Assembly (NCBI GenBank): GCA_003023365.1
Contig: PXTG01000002.1
Coordinates: forward strand, 1 to 46,018
DNA length: 46,018 bases
Origin: Bacteroidetes bacterium QH_7_62_13
Lineage (GTDB): Bacteria > Bacteroidota > Rhodothermia > Rhodothermales > Salinibacteraceae
Direction of reading: 5' to 3'
The translations under genes were made by a program, and so were the position numbers. Positions 21,037-32,101 of the stretch are shown in pieces. Each line of letters opens with the position of its first letter. Positions within the stretch are counted from its first letter, which is position 1. Below the pieces are notes generated by a model, which saw only the letters and a list, made by a program, of their open reading frames with translations, was not told the origin of the DNA and ran no database searches.

Positions 21037-21397
21037 ACGGGGACTGCGGCAAACGAGATGCTGCGAGGGGGCAACCGGGGCGACGGCCCCGATACTGAGC
21101 CGTCCGTAATGTACGAGTCATGGGGTGGAGGCGAAAGGGGCTCGCGTGCGCCTTCCTCGGCAACTCATCTCATCCCTAGAGGAGAACGCAGTCGTTACAA
21201 TCAACCGTTCCGTTGGTTCTTTTTGTGTCCAACACGGGTGAAGATACGCCTCCCAGAAAGAGAAGGGCGCTGGAGTAGTTGCCCACCCAGCTTGCCGTCC
21301 CTACCGTCCCTCGTTACCCTCTTTCATGTCGCGGCCCCTTCCCGCGGGAGAACCGAGTCGCCCGTCTTCCCTCTTCCCACCCCACCCAACAAGCATC

Positions 21398-22144
21398 ATG
21401 TCCAACAACATCGAAGGAAAAGTCGTCGTGATCACCGGGGCGAGCAGCGGGCTCGGTAAGGCCGCGGCTCGCCACCTGGCCGACTCGGGCGCCCGAGTCG
21501 CCTTGGCGGCCCGACGGACCAACCGTCTTGAGACCCTCGCCGACGAGATCACCCAGAACGGCGGATCGGCCCTTCCCGTCACGACCGACGTCACCGAGCG
21601 CAAACAGGTGGAGTCACTCGTTGACGCCGCCGTCGATGCATTCGGCAGGATCGACGTCATGCTCAACAACGCCGGCATCATGCCGGTCTCCCCACTCGAC
21701 CGGCTCAACGTGGACGAATGGGACCGGATGATCGACGTCAATCTCAAGGGCGTCCTCTACGGCATTGCCGCGGCGCTCCCCTACATGCGAGAACAGGCGT
21801 CCGGCCACATCATCAACGTCGCCTCCGACGCCGGCCACAAGGTCCATCCGTCAGAGGCCGTGTACGCGGCCACCAAGCACGCCGTGCGGGCGCTTTCCGA
21901 CGGACTGCGCCAGGAGGTAAAGCCCTACGGCCTTCGCACGACCATTATTTCGCCGGGGGCCGTCGAGTCGGAGCTTCCGGACACCGTCCCCGAAGAAGAC
22001 GTGGCCGAAGAGATGCGTGCATTGTACGACGAGCACGCCCTTTCCCCCGACTCGTTCGCGCGGGCCGTCGCCTTCGCCATCGAGCAGCCGGAGGAGGTGG
22101 ACGTGAACGAGATTCTGTACCGGCCGACGAGTCAGAATCTGTAA
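21398..22144 (+). CDS. SDR family NAD(P)-dependent oxidoreductase
   Basis: '[34 protein letters not shown]', '[10 protein letters not shown]', '[11 protein letters not shown]'. Confidence 0.94.
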
Positions 22145-23472: not shown

Positions 23473-24639
23473 TCAACGGGACTCTCGTCTCTCCGGTCGG
23501 TGTGGCGGCGCGTGCGTCGTTCCCGGCTGCACCGATCTTCCCGGCCTCGTGCCCGCGAACCAGCGGGCGAGGACCCGCTCGGCGGGCTTTCCCTGCGGCG
23601 TGAAGGCGGTGGGATCCTGTCGATCATCTCGCGGATGCCACTTCCAAATGAAGGCACCGGCGAACCAGGGCGCCGTCCTCATGGTCGAAAAGAACGCCCG
23701 GTAGCAGCGGGCCTGAAGGGCCGAGTCGGGACGCACGCCGCTCTCCTCTTCCGGCCACCGCCACGGTGCCCTCGCAGCGGTACGCGCACTGCGGTACCCG
23801 ATCTCCGTGAACAGGACGGGCGTCTCCGTCCGCCGGTGTATCGCGGCCAGCTCCGCCCGGTGGGCCCGCCAGCGAGTCTGGAGCGTGTCGAGCGACGGAT
23901 TGGGCGTGTCAACCAGCGGGAAGTAGGCCTGCACGCCGACGTAGTCGAGCGCGTCCCAGAAGGCAATCTCCTCGTACTCGTCGTGCCAGTTGGCGGCGTA
24001 GGTGAGGGGGCCGTCGTAGACGGTCCGGACTGTATCGGCGAGGGCGCGAAAGAACTGGGGCCGGGTCGTGGCGGCACGGCTTAGTTCGGTTCCCAGTACC
24101 AACACATCGGCGTCGACCTCGGCGGCAAGCCGGGCGTAGATCATCAGAAAACGGCGGTAGCTGTCCTCCCAGCGTCCCCACTTCTCTGGCGAGTTGAATC
24201 CGATCTCGCTCCGGTTCTGCTGTTCGTCGTAGCCCCCAATCCAGAGGTGCGGCTTGAGGATCACGCCCATGCCAAGGGAATCGGCCCGACGAGCAAGAGC
24301 ACGGATGCCCCGGTGCGACTCGCTGTACCACCCGTCGCTCGTGTCGACACGCACCTGCGGGTCGTCCGCCGCCCGTTGCCAGCCGAAAGAGACCAGGGTA
24401 ATGTGGGTGACGCCGAGATTCCGCAACCGGGACAACAGACCGGGCTCGGGGGGATGCCGGGCATCTAGTGTCACCGAACGAACGTCGAAGGCGGGGGCGT
24501 CCGGGACGGTGTCGACCACCGCTTCTCGATCCGCCCCTCCCTCCTTCGTCGTCAACTCTGCGTCCCAACAGCCGAGGAGGAGCACGGTGGTGCCGAGCAG
24601 GCTACCATAGACGAGGCTGAGGAAGCGGGACGAAGACAT
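23473..24639 (-). CDS. Lipoprotein glycoside hydrolase, TIM-barrel (GH113-like)
   Basis: Lipobox 'TVLLLGC'; 'MGVILKPHLWIGG', 'DVLVLGTELSRA', 'LDYVGVQAYFPL', 'PVLFTEIGYRS', 'GAFIWKWHP' with two candidate catalytic Glu. Confidence 0.7.
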   Translation of the reverse strand: MSSSRFLSLVYGSLLGTTVLLLGCWDAELTTKEGGADREAVVDTVPDAPAFDVRSVTLDARHPPEPGLLSRLRNLGVTHITLVSFGWQRAADDPQVRVDTSDGWYSESHRGIRALARRADSLGMGVILKPHLWIGGYDEQQNRSEIGFNSPEKWGRWEDSYRRFLMIYARLAAEVDADVLVLGTELSRAATTRPQFFRALADTVRTVYDGPLTYAANWHDEYEEIAFWDALDYVGVQAYFPLVDTPNPSLDTLQTRWRAHRAELAAIHRRTETPVLFTEIGYRSARTAARAPWRWPEEESGVRPDSALQARCYRAFFSTMRTAPWFAGAFIWKWHPRDDRQDPTAFTPQGKPAERVLARWFAGTRPGRSVQPGTTHAPPHRPERRESR

Positions 24640-25442: not shown

Positions 25443-26058
25443 AGAACCACGCCACGCGCCAGCCGGCACGCTGACCGCCCTCCACGTCCGACCGGTAGGA
25501 GTCGCCGACGTACAAGATCTCGTTGGGCTCTCCCCCCGCCTCCTCGGTGGCGTGGGCGAACGCCTGCGGGTCCGGCTTGAGGACGCCGGTCTCCTCACAC
25601 ACCACGATGGCATCGGCTCGCTCGCGCAGCGTGGGAAATTGATCCAACTTCTGCGCCTGCACCTCGGCGAAGCCGTTGGTCATGATGCCCACCGGCCGGT
25701 TCTCCGCAATAGACTCGTAGGCCCTCCGCGCCCCTGGAATGAACTGCCAGTGCGCCGCGTAGCGCTGCATGTAGTAGCGCCCCACGAGGGAGGGGTCGGC
25801 GTGCGGGGCATCAACGGCCTCTAGCAGTCGAGCAAAGCGTTGATGCTGCACGGTGTCCTTCTCAATTTCTCCGTCGGCGTAGCGACGCCACAGCGGCGCA
25901 TTGATGGCGTGGTATTTTTCCTGCAATTCGTCGACCGAGAGCGTCCCGAAAATCGCCCGGTAGCGGTCTCGCACATCGGCCAGGGCCGTGCGCTCCGCGT
26001 GCTCGTGATCGAGGAGCGTGTCGTCCAGATCGAAATATACAAATTCGACGTCGTCCAT
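25402..26058 (-). CDS. HAD-family hydrolase (YjjG-like nucleotidase)
   Basis: 'DVEFVYFDLDDTLLDHEHAERTAL', 'VGIMTNGFAEVQAQKLDQF', 'GVLKPDPQAFAHA', 'ILYVGDSYRSDVEGGQRAGWRVAWF'. Confidence 0.92.
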   Translation of the reverse strand: MDDVEFVYFDLDDTLLDHEHAERTALADVRDRYRAIFGTLSVDELQEKYHAINAPLWRRYADGEIEKDTVQHQRFARLLEAVDAPHADPSLVGRYYMQRYAAHWQFIPGARRAYESIAENRPVGIMTNGFAEVQAQKLDQFPTLRERADAIVVCEETGVLKPDPQAFAHATEEAGGEPNEILYVGDSYRSDVEGGQRAGWRVAWFSTRAGFASRVGRN

Positions 26059-26182
26059 TAGCGGGTTAAGCAGTTGCAACAGGGAAAATGGTCATCTCCA
26101 CCAAGATCCGGTGGGAAGTGATGGGCCCCCGCCCCGCCGCCAGACGAATGCAGGTTTCGTTTTGCACACGGTGGGTGCGTGG

Positions 26183-27337
26183 TCACTGTTCGTCCAGTGC
26201 ACACTCGAAGAGCGCGTACTCTTTGTCCTTCACGCCCCCGAGCGACTCGACGTGGTTCTTGAGGCGGTCGTTGCTGTCGAGCACCCAGCTCATCTCGCAG
26301 GCATCGTACCCGTTGGCGGGGCCGCGCTCGGTGGTCTCAAGGACGAGCATGCTGTCGAGTCCCTTCCCCTGGAACTCGGGGCGGATGCCCATAAGGGGCA
26401 TGCGGCACTCGTAAGTGCCGTACGTCAGGTAAAGATAGAGCTTCGGCAGGCCCCACGGAAAGAGGCGTCCGTCGGACACGTGGCGCAGGGCTTGGTTCAC
26501 GTTGGGGAGGGCAATGGAGAACCCCACCGGTCGTCCCTCGTGCTCGACGATAAACACAAGCTCGGGCTCTAGAACCTGCTCCATCTCCTCGGCAAGCTGC
26601 AGAAACTCCGCCTCCGTGACGGGCACGAAGCCCCAGTTTTGGGCCCACGCCTCGTTGTAGATCTCGCGGATGGTACGAGCCTCTTCCTCAAACCGGTCGA
26701 GGTCGATGGAGCGGACCGAAAGGCCCGGCGTGCGCTTCTTCACGACCTCCACCCCGCGCCGTAGCCGTTCGTAGTCGCAATACTTTTTGTGGAGGTAGTA
26801 GGCCCACATCGTCATGCTGCGGCCAAACCCGTAGCGCTCCAGAAAATCCTCGTGGTACGGGGGGTTGTAGGGCATGAGAATGGCCGGCTCCCGGTCGAAT
26901 CCGTCCACCAGCAGACCGGCGGTATCGTTGAGTGAGGGGTTGGTGGGACCGCGCATGCGCTTGAGGCCCTCCCCGCGCACCCAGTCGGCGGCGGCGTCGA
27001 GGAGGGCCTCGGCCACAGCGTAGTCCTCCACGCATTCGAAGAAGCCAAAGAAGCCCGTGCCGTCCTCGTAGGTCCGGAGGTGCATCCCGTTCACGATTCC
27101 GGCGATGCGCCCCACGACGGCCCCCGACGCATCTTCGGCGAGGAACAGCTGCATGTCTCCGTGCTCGAAAAACGCATTGTCGGAAGGGTCGAGCGTCGAC
27201 TTCACATCGCGACGGAGCGGCGGAACCCAGGCCGGATACCGATCCGGATAGAAGTCGTACGGCATGTCGATGAAACGGGATCGGTCCCTCCGCCCCTCAA
27301 CGGGGCGAACGGTGACGGAGGAAGGGGACACCGACAT
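26183..27337 (-). CDS. GNAT-fold acyltransferase-like protein, possible sphingolipid/sulfonolipid N-acyltransferase
   Basis: 384 aa; 'FIDMPYDFYPDRYPAWVPPLRRDVKSTLDPSDNAFFEHGDMQLFLAEDASGAVVGRIAGIVN...GFFGFFECVED...RMRGPTNPSLNDTAGLLVDGFDREPAILMPYNPPYHEDFLERYGF'. Family resemblance from memory; adjacent to SPT-like gene. Confidence 0.6.
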   Translation of the reverse strand: MSVSPSSVTVRPVEGRRDRSRFIDMPYDFYPDRYPAWVPPLRRDVKSTLDPSDNAFFEHGDMQLFLAEDASGAVVGRIAGIVNGMHLRTYEDGTGFFGFFECVEDYAVAEALLDAAADWVRGEGLKRMRGPTNPSLNDTAGLLVDGFDREPAILMPYNPPYHEDFLERYGFGRSMTMWAYYLHKKYCDYERLRRGVEVVKKRTPGLSVRSIDLDRFEEEARTIREIYNEAWAQNWGFVPVTEAEFLQLAEEMEQVLEPELVFIVEHEGRPVGFSIALPNVNQALRHVSDGRLFPWGLPKLYLYLTYGTYECRMPLMGIRPEFQGKGLDSMLVLETTERGPANGYDACEMSWVLDSNDRLKNHVESLGGVKDKEYALFECALDEQ

Positions 27338-27448
27338 TCAGGATCGGACGGAGTTGGGAGACAACAAACGAACGCCGCCGCCCCCGCAGAGGTGCAGGGA
27401 ACGACGGCGTGCGTACGTGGCGGAAGGCGTTGCTGTTCGGCGGGCGGC

Positions 27449-28756
27449 CTACTCGGCGGGGGGCGCGTGGTGCCCATTCGTACCGATCACACCGTGCTTC
27501 TTGCCCACCTTCCGAAAGGCATCAAGAATGCGATTGAGCTCTTCGTCGGTATGGGTGGCCATGTACGAGGTCCGCATGAGGGACTGTCCTTTCGGGACGG
27601 CCGGGGGCACGACGGCGTTCACGAACACTCCTTCCGAGAGCAGGTCACGCCAGAACCGAAAGCACCTCTCCATGTCGCCGATGACGACCGGAATGATCGG
27701 TGTTTCACTCTCCCACACGTCGAAGCCAAGGTCGCGGAATCCGTCCCGCATGTAATCGGAGACCTCTTCGAGCCGGTCGAGGCGCTCGGGCTCGTTTTCC
27801 AGAATGTCGAGGCTCTTGAGGACCGTCGCTACGGTGGCGGGGGGCATCGACGCGCTGAAGATATGGGTCGACGCCTCGTGACGGATGTACTCAATCACGT
27901 CGCGGTCCCCGACGGCGAATCCTCCGATCGAGGCAAAGCTCTTCGAGAAGGTTCCCGTGATCAGATGCACGTCATCTTTCAGGCCGAAGGTGGAGGCGGA
28001 TCCCCGTCCCCCGTCGCCGATTACGCCAATCGCGTGGGCGTCATCGAGCATGAGCGCTGCGTCGAACTCGTTGGCCAGCTCCAGCAGGTCGGGCACCCTG
28101 GCCACCTTGCCGCTCATCGAGAAGACCCCATCGGTCGCAATCAGCTTGCCGGCATTGGGGCTTTCCTTGTCGGCCCGCTCCAACATGCGGCGCAGGTGCC
28201 CCATGTCGTTATGCCGGTAGCGTCGCGTCTCGGCTAGGCTCGTTCTCAGTCCCTGATTGATACAGGCATGATTGTCCTTGTCGGAAAAGATGATGTCGCC
28301 CCGTCCGGCGACGGCCTGGAGCACGCCCTCATTGGTCATGTACCCCGTAGAAAACAGGACGGCCTTCTCCTTCCCCATGAAGTTCGCCAACCGCTCCTCC
28401 AACTCCAGGTGCATGTCGAGCGTGCCGTTTAGGAAGCGGCTCCCCGTACAGCCCGTGCCGTATTTGTCAACGGCCTCCTTCGCCGCCTCCTTTACGCGGG
28501 GGTCGGAGGTAAGCCCCAGATAGTTGTTCGAGCCCGCCATGACGACCTCCTCCCCATCCATCACGGCCTGCGTGCCTTCGCTTTCCTCGATGGGACGGAA
28601 GTAGGGATAGAGATCCGCCCGCTTGATTTTGGCGTAGTCCCCGGACGGATCGAAAAACTCGTGACACTTCTCGAAAAGCGACGGCTCGTCGTCGGCGTCG
28701 GACTCAACCGCCTTCGTCCGAACGAACTCGTGAGGCCGCTTTTTTTGATCGGGCAT
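27449..28756 (-). CDS. PLP-dependent alpha-oxoamine synthase (serine palmitoyltransferase / cysteate acyltransferase-like)
   Basis: 'MAGSNNYLGLTSDPRVKEAAKEAVDKYGTGCTGSRFLNGTLDMHLELEERLANFMGKEKAVLFSTGYMTNEG', 'LMLDDAHAIGVIGDGGRGS', PLP lysine 'LITGTFSKSFASIGGF'. Confidence 0.88.
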   Translation of the reverse strand: MPDQKKRPHEFVRTKAVESDADDEPSLFEKCHEFFDPSGDYAKIKRADLYPYFRPIEESEGTQAVMDGEEVVMAGSNNYLGLTSDPRVKEAAKEAVDKYGTGCTGSRFLNGTLDMHLELEERLANFMGKEKAVLFSTGYMTNEGVLQAVAGRGDIIFSDKDNHACINQGLRTSLAETRRYRHNDMGHLRRMLERADKESPNAGKLIATDGVFSMSGKVARVPDLLELANEFDAALMLDDAHAIGVIGDGGRGSASTFGLKDDVHLITGTFSKSFASIGGFAVGDRDVIEYIRHEASTHIFSASMPPATVATVLKSLDILENEPERLDRLEEVSDYMRDGFRDLGFDVWESETPIIPVVIGDMERCFRFWRDLLSEGVFVNAVVPPAVPKGQSLMRTSYMATHTDEELNRILDAFRKVGKKHGVIGTNGHHAPPAE

Positions 28757-29193
28757 TGTCATAAGCAAGAGCGTAATGCGTAGGCAGGTATAAGCTCACA
28801 GAGAAACCTCCCAATTCGGGACCTCGGAGAGGGTTGCTGCTCTGTTTTCCCACTATATCTAAATAACGTCGCACCGTCTGCGTCGGAAGTAACACCGTTA
28901 ACACTGGGTGTTCACGGACTGCGGTGCGGGGCACCATGGGAACAACGATTCGACACACTTGGCTTGTACGCTTTCCCACCTGCGCGTTTCCCGCCTCATC
29001 GAGGTTTTTCAATACCCGGAAGGGCTTTTTCCCCGCTCAGATTTAGGTTTGTGTATCCTTTCACATCCTCTCGGGCCGATACGGGACCCACTCCGCTCTC
29101 GCTCCCCCGCGTGCCCCCCGGACACTCATTTTACCAACGCGTAATTCATGAGGCCTTTCACCGGACACAGATCTTTGACCACGGATCTATCTT

Positions 29194-29889
29194 CTAAAAG
29201 CGCATCTGAATGCGGAGACCAATCCCGTCCCGAACCGTCGAAGACCCAGACGGGATCGGCCCCGATCGGGAAGCACTGAGGGCGGTCCGGATCGGTCCCA
29301 CAGTCCCCGTCGGCCGTACCCGTACCGCGAGCTCTTCGTCCACGTCGAACGTGAGGAGGTGGGCACTCACGTATGCGTCGAGCAACGTGAGGGCGTAGAA
29401 GAGTCCCGCTCCCAGAATGGCAAGGTCCCGCTGCCGCCGGAGCTCGTCGCGCTGGCTTCGGACTTCGTCTAGTCGCACCGTTCCCCCAAGAAAGAGTTCT
29501 TCCTTCACGCGATTAAACTGGGTCCTGTATTGACGATAGGGATTTTCGCCCTCGCCCGCCCGTTCCCGCCCAATTCCGAAGAGGTGGGCCCGGTCGAAGA
29601 GCCGGTATCTCTGCTGCGAGCGATAGATACGGAACGCAAGTCCAGCGAGTCCCGCGTAGACGAGGGGGATTTTGTAGTGCTGTCGGTTGTAGTACTGCCC
29701 CCAACCCGGCACAGCAGCAGTGCGCCAGAGCGCGCCCTTCGGGGAATGATCGGGCGGGAATCCCTTTTCCTTGAGCATCTCGGCCCGCACACTGTCGGGT
29801 TGTGCCTGAACCCCCCTCCCCCCCAGACTGCCCACCAGAATCGACAGCCCCGCAATGACCGAAATAAGCGGAATGCGCAGATGGGGCAT
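29194..29889 (-). CDS. DUF5683-like protein (conserved next to parB in Bacteroidota)
   Basis: Signal peptide; 'HSPKGALWRTAAVPGWGQYYNRQHYKIPLVYAGLAGLAFRIYRSQQRYRLFDRAH'; located downstream of parB. Confidence 0.8.
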   Translation of the reverse strand: MPHLRIPLISVIAGLSILVGSLGGRGVQAQPDSVRAEMLKEKGFPPDHSPKGALWRTAAVPGWGQYYNRQHYKIPLVYAGLAGLAFRIYRSQQRYRLFDRAHLFGIGRERAGEGENPYRQYRTQFNRVKEELFLGGTVRLDEVRSQRDELRRQRDLAILGAGLFYALTLLDAYVSAHLLTFDVDEELAVRVRPTGTVGPIRTALSASRSGPIPSGSSTVRDGIGLRIQMRF

Positions 29890-29979
29890 GGCGATGAACA
29901 GTGACCAGCGGAACGAGCGAGGCCGACCGCCGCGGCGCCGAGCGGCTCCGGCGGGGCCTGGAGACCCGGACCCGAGAAA

Positions 29980-30942
29980 CTACTCTTCCGTCATCAGCTC
30001 CACCAGGCGTTCGAGGTCTTCCTCGGAGTAGTAAGAGACCTCAATCGTTCCCTCGCCGTCCTTCTTATGGGTGATCTGTACCTGTGTACTGAACCGGGAC
30101 CGGAGCTTGCTTCGGTACTCTTCGAGCTGAAGCTCTTCCCGGTCGGGGGAGGCGGAGGGAACCGGGCTCTCTTCCTCCTCGTCGTCGGCCCCCTCCTCCT
30201 GATCCTCGTGCCAGGTTCGTGCCCGACGCTCCACCTCTCGTACCGAGAGATCCTCCTCAATCGTCGCTTCCAGGAGTTCGACCTGCGCCTCTTCGTCGTC
30301 GATGGCGATAAGGGCCCGGGCGTGACCCATCGCCACCTCTTTGTCGCGGAGGGCCGCCTGGACCCGGGGCGGAAGGCGCAGCAGCCGCAAGAAGTTGGAT
30401 ACGGTAGCGCGGCTCTTGCTCACCTTTTCGGAGACCTCCTCCTGGGTAAGCCCGCACTCCTCCATGAGACGCTGGTAGCCAAGGGCAACCTCGATGGGAT
30501 TCAACTCCTCGCGCTGGACGTTCTCCACAAGAGCCATCTCCAGCATCTCCTCGGAGCTGGCCTTCCGGATGAATGCCGGCAGGCGCTCCACCCCCGCGCG
30601 CCGGGCCGCTCGCAGGCGCCGTTCGCCCGAGATAATTTCGAACTGGCCGTCGTTGAGGGCCCGGACGGTGATGGGCTGAATCACGCCGAGCTCTCTGATG
30701 GATGCGGCCAACTCGTCGAGTGCCTCGTCCTTGAACTCCTGTCGGGGCTGGTACGGGTTGGGGCGGATGCGCTCGATGGCCACCTCCGCCACGCGCCCCA
30801 GAAGCCGCGTACCGTCCTCAAACTGGTAGAGCTGGCTCTCAGAGACGTCTTCGCCACTCTTCTCCTCCGGGGCCTGCTCCTCTTCCTCCTCGGAGGGGAT
30901 AAGCGCGTTCAGTCCTTTTCCAAGTGCGGAGTCGTCAGCCAT
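29980..30942 (-). CDS. parB: Chromosome partitioning protein ParB
   Basis: 'ALGKGLNALIP', 'IERIRPNPYQPRQEFKDEALDELAASIRELGVIQPITVR', 'ISGERRLRAARRAG', HTH 'GLTQEEVSEKVSKSRATVSNFLRLLRLP'. Confidence 0.97.
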   Translation of the reverse strand: MADDSALGKGLNALIPSEEEEEQAPEEKSGEDVSESQLYQFEDGTRLLGRVAEVAIERIRPNPYQPRQEFKDEALDELAASIRELGVIQPITVRALNDGQFEIISGERRLRAARRAGVERLPAFIRKASSEEMLEMALVENVQREELNPIEVALGYQRLMEECGLTQEEVSEKVSKSRATVSNFLRLLRLPPRVQAALRDKEVAMGHARALIAIDDEEAQVELLEATIEEDLSVREVERRARTWHEDQEEGADDEEEESPVPSASPDREELQLEEYRSKLRSRFSTQVQITHKKDGEGTIEVSYYSEEDLERLVELMTEE

Positions 30943-31153
30943 ACTGAATAGACGTCGAGGAGATAAATGACGGGCAATGCCTGAACAACGCGGGGAATGA
31001 GCACCCCGGACTCGTTCTTCTATGTGTCGGATCCGCAGGGCGCAATCCAGTAGATGGTGGACCTCCCCGCTTTTCCAAATTGCGCATCACGCTCGATCCA
31101 TCGAAAGCACCTGCCCTTTCGAATTTTAAGCTACGTATCGCCCAAACAACAAC

Positions 31154-32101
31154 CTATAGCGAGAAGTCGTCGGCCGGTGTCGATTCTCCCTCGGCCCCGG
31201 AGGAGTCCTCCCCAATGGTTTCCGAAACGCTCTCCCCGTCGGCGTTCTCCGAGGAGGACGAAGCTGTAGACGACTGAGCAGCGTTCCCGCCCGGTTCCGC
31301 CTCCCCGTTCTCACTGGTGTGGTGGCCTTCAATGTACTCCTGGTTCTTCTCTAAAATCTCGCGGGCCAGTGCCATGTAATTCTTGGCCCCCTTACTGGAA
31401 GCCTCGTATAGAATAGCGGGCTTTCCGAAGCTCGGGGCCTCCGATAGTCGCACATTCCGCTGCACAATGGTCTCGAACACCTTGTCGCCGAAGTAACTTC
31501 GAACCTCCCGTGCGACCTGATTGGACAGATTCAGGCGCGTGTCGAACATCGTCAGCAGGACGCCCTCAATCTCGAGATCGGGGTTGAGGTGCTGACGTAC
31601 AATCTTGATGGTGTTGAGCAGCTGCCCGAGGCCTTCCAGCGCGAAGTATTCGGCCTGCACCGGAATGAGTACCGAATTGGCGGCCGTGAGCGAGTTAAGC
31701 GTGAGAAGCCCGAGGGACGGCGGACAGTCGATCACCACAAAGTCGTACTTGCGCCGAACGCGGGGAAGCGCATTGCTCAGAATTTTCTCCCGCTGCATCT
31801 CGTCAATCATCTCGATCTCGGCGCCGACGAGATTAATGTGGCTCGGCAGCATATCGAGGAACGGCATCTCCGTCGTCACGACCGCTTCGGCGGCGGGCAC
31901 CTCCCCGATAAGAACCTCATAGATGGAGGCACTGATCTCGTCCTCCCCCAACCCGATTCCGGACGTACAATTGGCCTGGGGATCGATGTCGAGGAGGAGC
32001 GTTGAATGCTCGGTCGCCGCCAGTGACGCGGCCAGGTTGATGGCCGTCGTCGTTTTCCCTACGCCGCCCTTCTGATTTGCGATGGCGATGACTTTGCCCA
32101 T
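31154..32101 (-). CDS. parA: Chromosome partitioning ATPase ParA (Soj)
   Basis: '[28 protein letters not shown]', '[16 protein letters not shown]', '[43 protein letters not shown]'. Confidence 0.97.

Follow-up and report, generated by a model that had tools for sequence, protein, structure and literature searches.

A serine palmitoyltransferase-clade enzyme and a tandem-GNAT protein, the probable front end of ceramide-type lipid synthesis in a member of the Salinibacteraceae

The window, by which we mean the whole 46,018-nucleotide stretch of DNA that was analyzed, comes from Bacteroidetes bacterium QH_7_62_13, whose genome is a MAG (62% complete, 118 contigs). Since this MAG is incomplete, the absences reported here rest on its relatives, above all Salinibacter ruber. 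Two neighboring genes on the minus strand are the subject of this study. The upstream one is an ORF of 439 codons starting from a TTG at position 28768 (alternative ATG starts are at 28762 and 28756, the latter being the end given in the original prediction), which encodes an α-oxoamine synthase (AOS) containing the motifs GTFSKSFASIGG, with Lys276 in TTG numbering, and DDAHAIGV. The downstream one encodes a 384-aa GNAT protein in which all the sequence blocks originally quoted for it are present. The original prediction, which had placed this protein about 110 bp behind the AOS on the same strand, was accurate in this respect, the gap being 111 bp. The features of the locus are as follows.

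26183..27337, minus strand: tandem-GNAT protein of 384 aa, YghO/bCerS family, SPT-linked clade, predicted N-acyltransferase (Pfam, homologues, tree, AlphaFold2, Foldseek).
27338..27448, minus strand: intergenic gap of 111 bp between the AOS and GNAT genes (ORF coordinates).
27449..28768, minus strand: AOS of the serine palmitoyltransferase (SPT) clade, 439 aa (ORF, Pfam, NCBIfam, alignment, tree).
27851..27853, minus strand: Ala306 (from the TTG), at the position of SulA Lys281, which is Ala in SPT and Lys in cysteate acyltransferases (alignment).
27941..27943, minus strand: Lys276 (from the TTG), the catalytic PLP lysine (alignment with SulA Lys251).
29194..32101, minus strand: conserved upstream context outside the pathway, with parA (31154-32101), parB (29980-30942) and a DUF5683 gene (29194-29889) (gene-order comparison).

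No sigma-70-like promoter was found in 25800-29400. Elsewhere in the window, the product of 23473-24639 is predicted to be a family 113 glycoside hydrolase (Pfam GH113, E=7e-46), unrelated to the AOS-GNAT pair. An SDR at 21326-22144 was considered as a ketosphinganine reductase and rejected, because it has generic SDR matches only and lies outside the conserved block.

As for the AOS, which matches Pfam Aminotran_1_2 (E=2.3e-60), its closest solved structure is the SPT of Sphingobacterium multivorum, with 420 bits and 51% identity, versus 238 and 235 bits for the cysteate acyltransferases (CFAT) 7U7H and 28EH, to which it is 32% identical. The top NCBIfam model is SerpalmtaseCFB (NF047600) at 499.2 bits, and since this is below the curated equivalog cut-off of 640, we name the protein a member of the SPT clade rather than a certified SPT. 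The active site of SulA differs from that of SPT by Lys281, which replaces an Ala and has been proposed as a marker (PMC9304779). In our alignment of 79 AOS, the window AOS and all SPT-like rows share Ala at this site, as do all the orthologs examined, whereas the CFAT rows have Lys without exception; KBL, BioF and the Thermus AOS carry Asn or Thr there. Asn53, His140, Lys251 and Arg376 (SulA numbering) are kept in the window AOS, which also carries the SPT residues at SulA positions 78 and 255. The active-site comparison suggested for telling serine from cysteate use has thus returned residues of SPT type, without the diagnostic Lys. In a tree of 60 rows, in which the long branches that were flagged are mostly proteobacterial SPTs, Streptomyces, Thermus and BioF, the window AOS falls within the SPT clade (98/97), while the CFAT sequences form a clade of their own (100/100) and KBL and BioF group separately. 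Tree and residues together rule out a CFAT identity and a KBL or BioF identity, the latter being the grouping that had been held to speak against the original prediction. By sequence, the AOS is therefore a member of the SPT clade, in line with the SPT-like character first proposed for it.

The GNAT protein, for which a sequence search of solved structures returned nothing close, matches Pfam Acetyltransf_1 (E=1.7e-7). An AlphaFold2 model built from a 40-row alignment consists of two GNAT domains, with a mean pLDDT of 83.5, and the Foldseek matches to this model are tandem GNATs (E about 1e-13, TM about 0.6). E. coli YghO is among the relatives found by a tblastn scan of plasmids, with 33% identity over 95% of the length. 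More broadly, over about 370 columns the protein shares 32-38% identity with YghO and with members of SPT clusters in Sphingomonas, Roseomonas, Rubrobacter and Streptomyces, those of Sphingomonas and Roseomonas (33-38%) lying within sphingolipid clusters. In Sphingomonas, a GNAT gene accompanies an oxidoreductase-ACP-AOS-lptFG cluster, while in Roseomonas it is one gene away from the LptF/LptG permeases, with an AOS and an ACP nearby. The latter arrangement resembles that of Caulobacter, where CC_1154 (cerS), which is needed for dihydroceramide, adjoins lptG2/lptF2 (CC_1155, CC_1156) (PMC11324152). Judging from these comparisons, the window GNAT belongs to the YghO/bCerS family and to its SPT-linked clade, the relation to bCerS itself being indirect, through syntenic relatives. 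By this route, the lack of any bCerS relation that had been held to speak against the original prediction was not observed, and its ceramide-synthase-like label is probably right.

In a GNAT tree of 70 rows, the window protein is on the SPT side, and the CFAT-adjacent and SPT-adjacent rows each need a single change (100/100). Four positions of the alignment separate the two sides. Trp231, Asn234, Trp351 and Tyr374 of the window GNAT are found in nearly all SPT-linked rows as well as in YghO, Sphingomonas and Roseomonas, while the Aureispira and Streptomyces proteins deviate at some of them. The CFAT-linked rows have Tyr, Leu, Pro and Arg instead, with Gln at 351 in one row. Since these positions were chosen from the same alignment, they describe the clades and are no independent test of them.

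Conservation of the pair is extensive. Among 60 relatives, AOS matches are found in all and the GNAT in 58. Both orthologs are present in 57 Rhodothermales genomes, and in 52 of these the GNAT gene directly follows the AOS gene on the same strand (the exceptions are G029, G033, G038, G043 and G053), a frequency that argues against a chance pairing. Within the order, the two genes sit in a conserved block, parA-parB-DUF5683-AOS-GNAT, so that their adjacency there partly reflects shared descent. Stronger evidence for the pairing comes from plasmid pairs outside this block and from co-occurrence without linkage. Thus, AOS, GNAT and oxidoreductase genes form a single run on Rubrobacter and Streptomyces plasmids, and an oxidoreductase, AOS and GNAT are neighbors on an Aureispira plasmid; SPT-GNAT pairs are found in other phyla too, including Actinomycetota. 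Likewise, 118 genomes were sampled across the phylum; a good match to the GNAT is present in 85 of the 86 that have an SPT, and 47 of 87 SPT copies have the GNAT gene as a neighbor. The co-conservation expected of the two genes in the original prediction is thereby confirmed.

From these findings, we infer that the pair probably carries out the first, cytoplasmic steps in the bacterial synthesis of ceramide-type lipids, namely condensation and N-acylation. In the proposed pathway, the AOS would act as an SPT, with a serine-PLP aldimine forming on Lys276. This aldimine would react with a long-chain acyl thioester, with loss of CO2, to yield 3-ketosphinganine, which the tandem-GNAT (bCerS) protein would N-acylate to 3-keto-ceramide. 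The reduction to ceramide would fall to a CerR-like enzyme whose gene lies at another site in genomes of the genus. In Caulobacter, Spt and bCerS reside in the cytoplasm and CerR in the periplasm (PMC11087976). CerR-like orthologs are present in most relatives, with 31-41% identity to the SPT-neighboring oxidoreductase of Aureispira; the source MAG (62% complete) has a weak match only, and no CerR gene lies beside the AOS-GNAT pair. The top NCBIfam match of these orthologs is HpnA, below its cut-off, and they may serve another role. We found no literature report of ceramides in Salinibacter, the special lipid reported there being a sulfonolipid.

This sulfonolipid, a possible product already named in the original prediction, provides the main alternative: the pair would make halocapnine, with the AOS using cysteate despite its SPT-type Ala and the GNAT acylating the sulfonated base. 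Sulfonolipids are indeed reported in S. ruber. Using as query a flavobacterial CFAT (which scores 703 bits against 28EH and 569 bits against 7U7H), we searched the 60 relatives and found orthologs (46-49%) in families f2, f7, f8 and f9, but none in family f1, which includes Salinibacter and where the best matches are of SPT type and KBL. S. ruber DSM 13855 has no CFAT and only two AOS genes, the SPT-type one and another that scores 642 bits as glycine C-acetyltransferase (cut-off 460), which leaves the strain with no other long-chain AOS. CapA is not found above the model cut-off in this strain or in any of the 60 relatives; the Salinibacter matches of 420-431 bits, below the cut-off of 600, were rejected as CapA, their frames being of cystathionine beta-synthase size. 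S. ruber (L271:8992-9828) and most Salinibacter genomes encode ComA (phosphosulfolactate synthase), although it was not found in the source MAG (62% complete), and a sulfonate precursor (sulfopyruvate, cysteate) could therefore be supplied by another route. The neighbors of the S. ruber ComA gene are conserved with relatives, and no lipid cluster was recognized there by eye.

With the known CapA/CFAT pathway absent, the sulfonolipid backbone must come from an unknown enzyme or, by elimination, from the window-type AOS. The second option is less likely because every feature tested in the AOS is SPT-like (its clade, the diagnostic Ala, the residues at 78 and 255) and because the pair, spread across Bacteroidota and Actinomycetota, is far more widespread than the halocapnine producers. 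Moreover, the GNAT is in the SPT-linked rather than the CFAT-linked clade, and according to PMC5591296 the Salinibacter lipid is O-acylated (the printed word is "O-acetylated"), whereas bCerS catalyzes N-acylation. We consider it unlikely that the pair makes halocapnine, and we give an equally small chance to the particular scenario in which the Salinibacter enzyme turned independently to cysteate, supplied via ComA and not CapA, and builds halocapnine without the marker lysine. Of the originally suggested condensation plus N- or O-acylation for halocapnine, the enzyme types are supported, with an SPT-type AOS and a bCerS-family GNAT, while the halocapnine product is not.

It seems to us very unlikely that the AOS is a relaxed SPT accepting alanine, glycine or some other amino acid, in which case the pair would make 1-deoxyceramides or similar lipids. 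Alanine is a reported substrate of Spt, and further amino acids have been hypothesized in marine bacteria (PMC11334938), but the tested active-site residues are identical to those of the serine-using S. multivorum SPT. That the two genes belong to unrelated pathways and are neighbors merely by descent is extremely improbable, since, even if adjacency alone is weak evidence inside an order in which the whole block is conserved, AOS and GNAT are neighbors outside it on the Rubrobacter, Streptomyces and Aureispira plasmids and co-occur even when unlinked elsewhere in Bacteroidota. A ceramide-type front end thus remains our preferred reading. Two predictions follow for Salinibacter: a genus known for a sulfonolipid would also have ceramide-type lipid machinery, and its sulfonolipid would not come from the known CapA/CFAT route.

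The GNAT family has a second association, with CFAT. In Flavobacteria lacking SPT, a member only 21-25% identical to the window GNAT is beside CFAT; at L128:6790-10520, for example, the order is CapA (649 bits, cut-off 600), CFAT and then GNAT on the opposite strand. Among 79 CFAT loci of Flavobacteriaceae (L189-L268), 49 have a GNAT within 1.5 kb on the opposite strand, and 75 have CapA; since they were the top-scoring loci of a single genome scan and are closely related, 49/79 is no phylum-wide rate. In the phylum sample, a non-SPT GNAT paralogue is found in 32 of 41 genomes with CFAT versus 10 of 76 without it (Fisher p=3e-12, uncorrected for relatedness and with paralogues picked by hand). 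The GNAT adjacent to CFAT in Flavobacteriaceae is, on these genomic grounds, a candidate capnine N-acyltransferase, which offers a specific protein for the N-acylation step in sulfonolipid synthesis. No enzyme for N-acylation of capnine is named in the literature that we searched; subscription papers were mostly outside this search, and an earlier assignment is possible.

Several other observations concern these families. At L179:6367-8700 (G088), an SPT-adjacent GNAT branches close to the base of the CFAT-linked clade, and its residues at the four diagnostic positions are Tyr, Leu, His and Arg. A third GNAT-family clade, linked to neither SPT nor CFAT, comprises rows such as L130, L132, L134-L141, L143, L145, L146, L174 and L175, and CFAT is also present in all 13 sampled genomes that carry it (13/13). 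In Rhodothermales (L167-L171, from G034, G046, G055, G032 and G027), we found proteins of ~1,110-1,210 aa whose C-terminal domain is a CFAT with the diagnostic Lys; in L167, Pfam identifies AMP-ligase, carrier-protein and AOS domains on one chain. At G033:C1:441589-442788, a CFAT match falls in a 1,171-aa frame whose gene is absent from the ORF listing.

Known systems place the pair as follows. SulA/CapB/CFAT (7U7H, 28EH) shares the AOS superfamily and chemistry with the window AOS and forms its sister clade in the tree, yet it is only 32% identical, has Lys281 where the window AOS has Ala, and occupies a separate clade (100/100). The S. multivorum SPT (3A2B/8GUH) is much closer, being 51% identical over 375 columns and in one clade with the window AOS, with the catalytic Lys, the equivalents of Asn53, His140 and Arg376, and Ala at the SulA-281 position in common; the window enzyme differs in its Rhodothermales origin, its N-terminal extension and its score below the NCBIfam equivalog cut-off. 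E. coli YghO is 32-33% identical to the window GNAT over nearly the whole length and, in some E. coli, is next to a cluster of SPT-like, ACP, fatty acyl-AMP ligase and lptFG genes. In strain PN43, AOS-ACP-epimerase-FAAL genes adjoin YghO, together with lptFG, whereas the K-12 yghO (L069:5044-7341) carries the annotation of a putative transcriptional regulator, and an IS5 beside it takes the place of the cluster genes. Finally, in the Spt-CerR-bCerS pathway of Caulobacter crescentus, the gene for bCerS/CerS is CC_1154 (CCNA_01212 in PMC10865984). The Salinibacter GNAT gene differs from it in following the SPT gene directly and in having no genes for CerR, a dedicated ACP or Lpt proteins as neighbors. 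As in Caulobacter, however, a putative N-acyltransferase gene goes with an SPT, and the proteobacterial relatives of the window GNAT adjoin lptF/lptG, just as cerS does.
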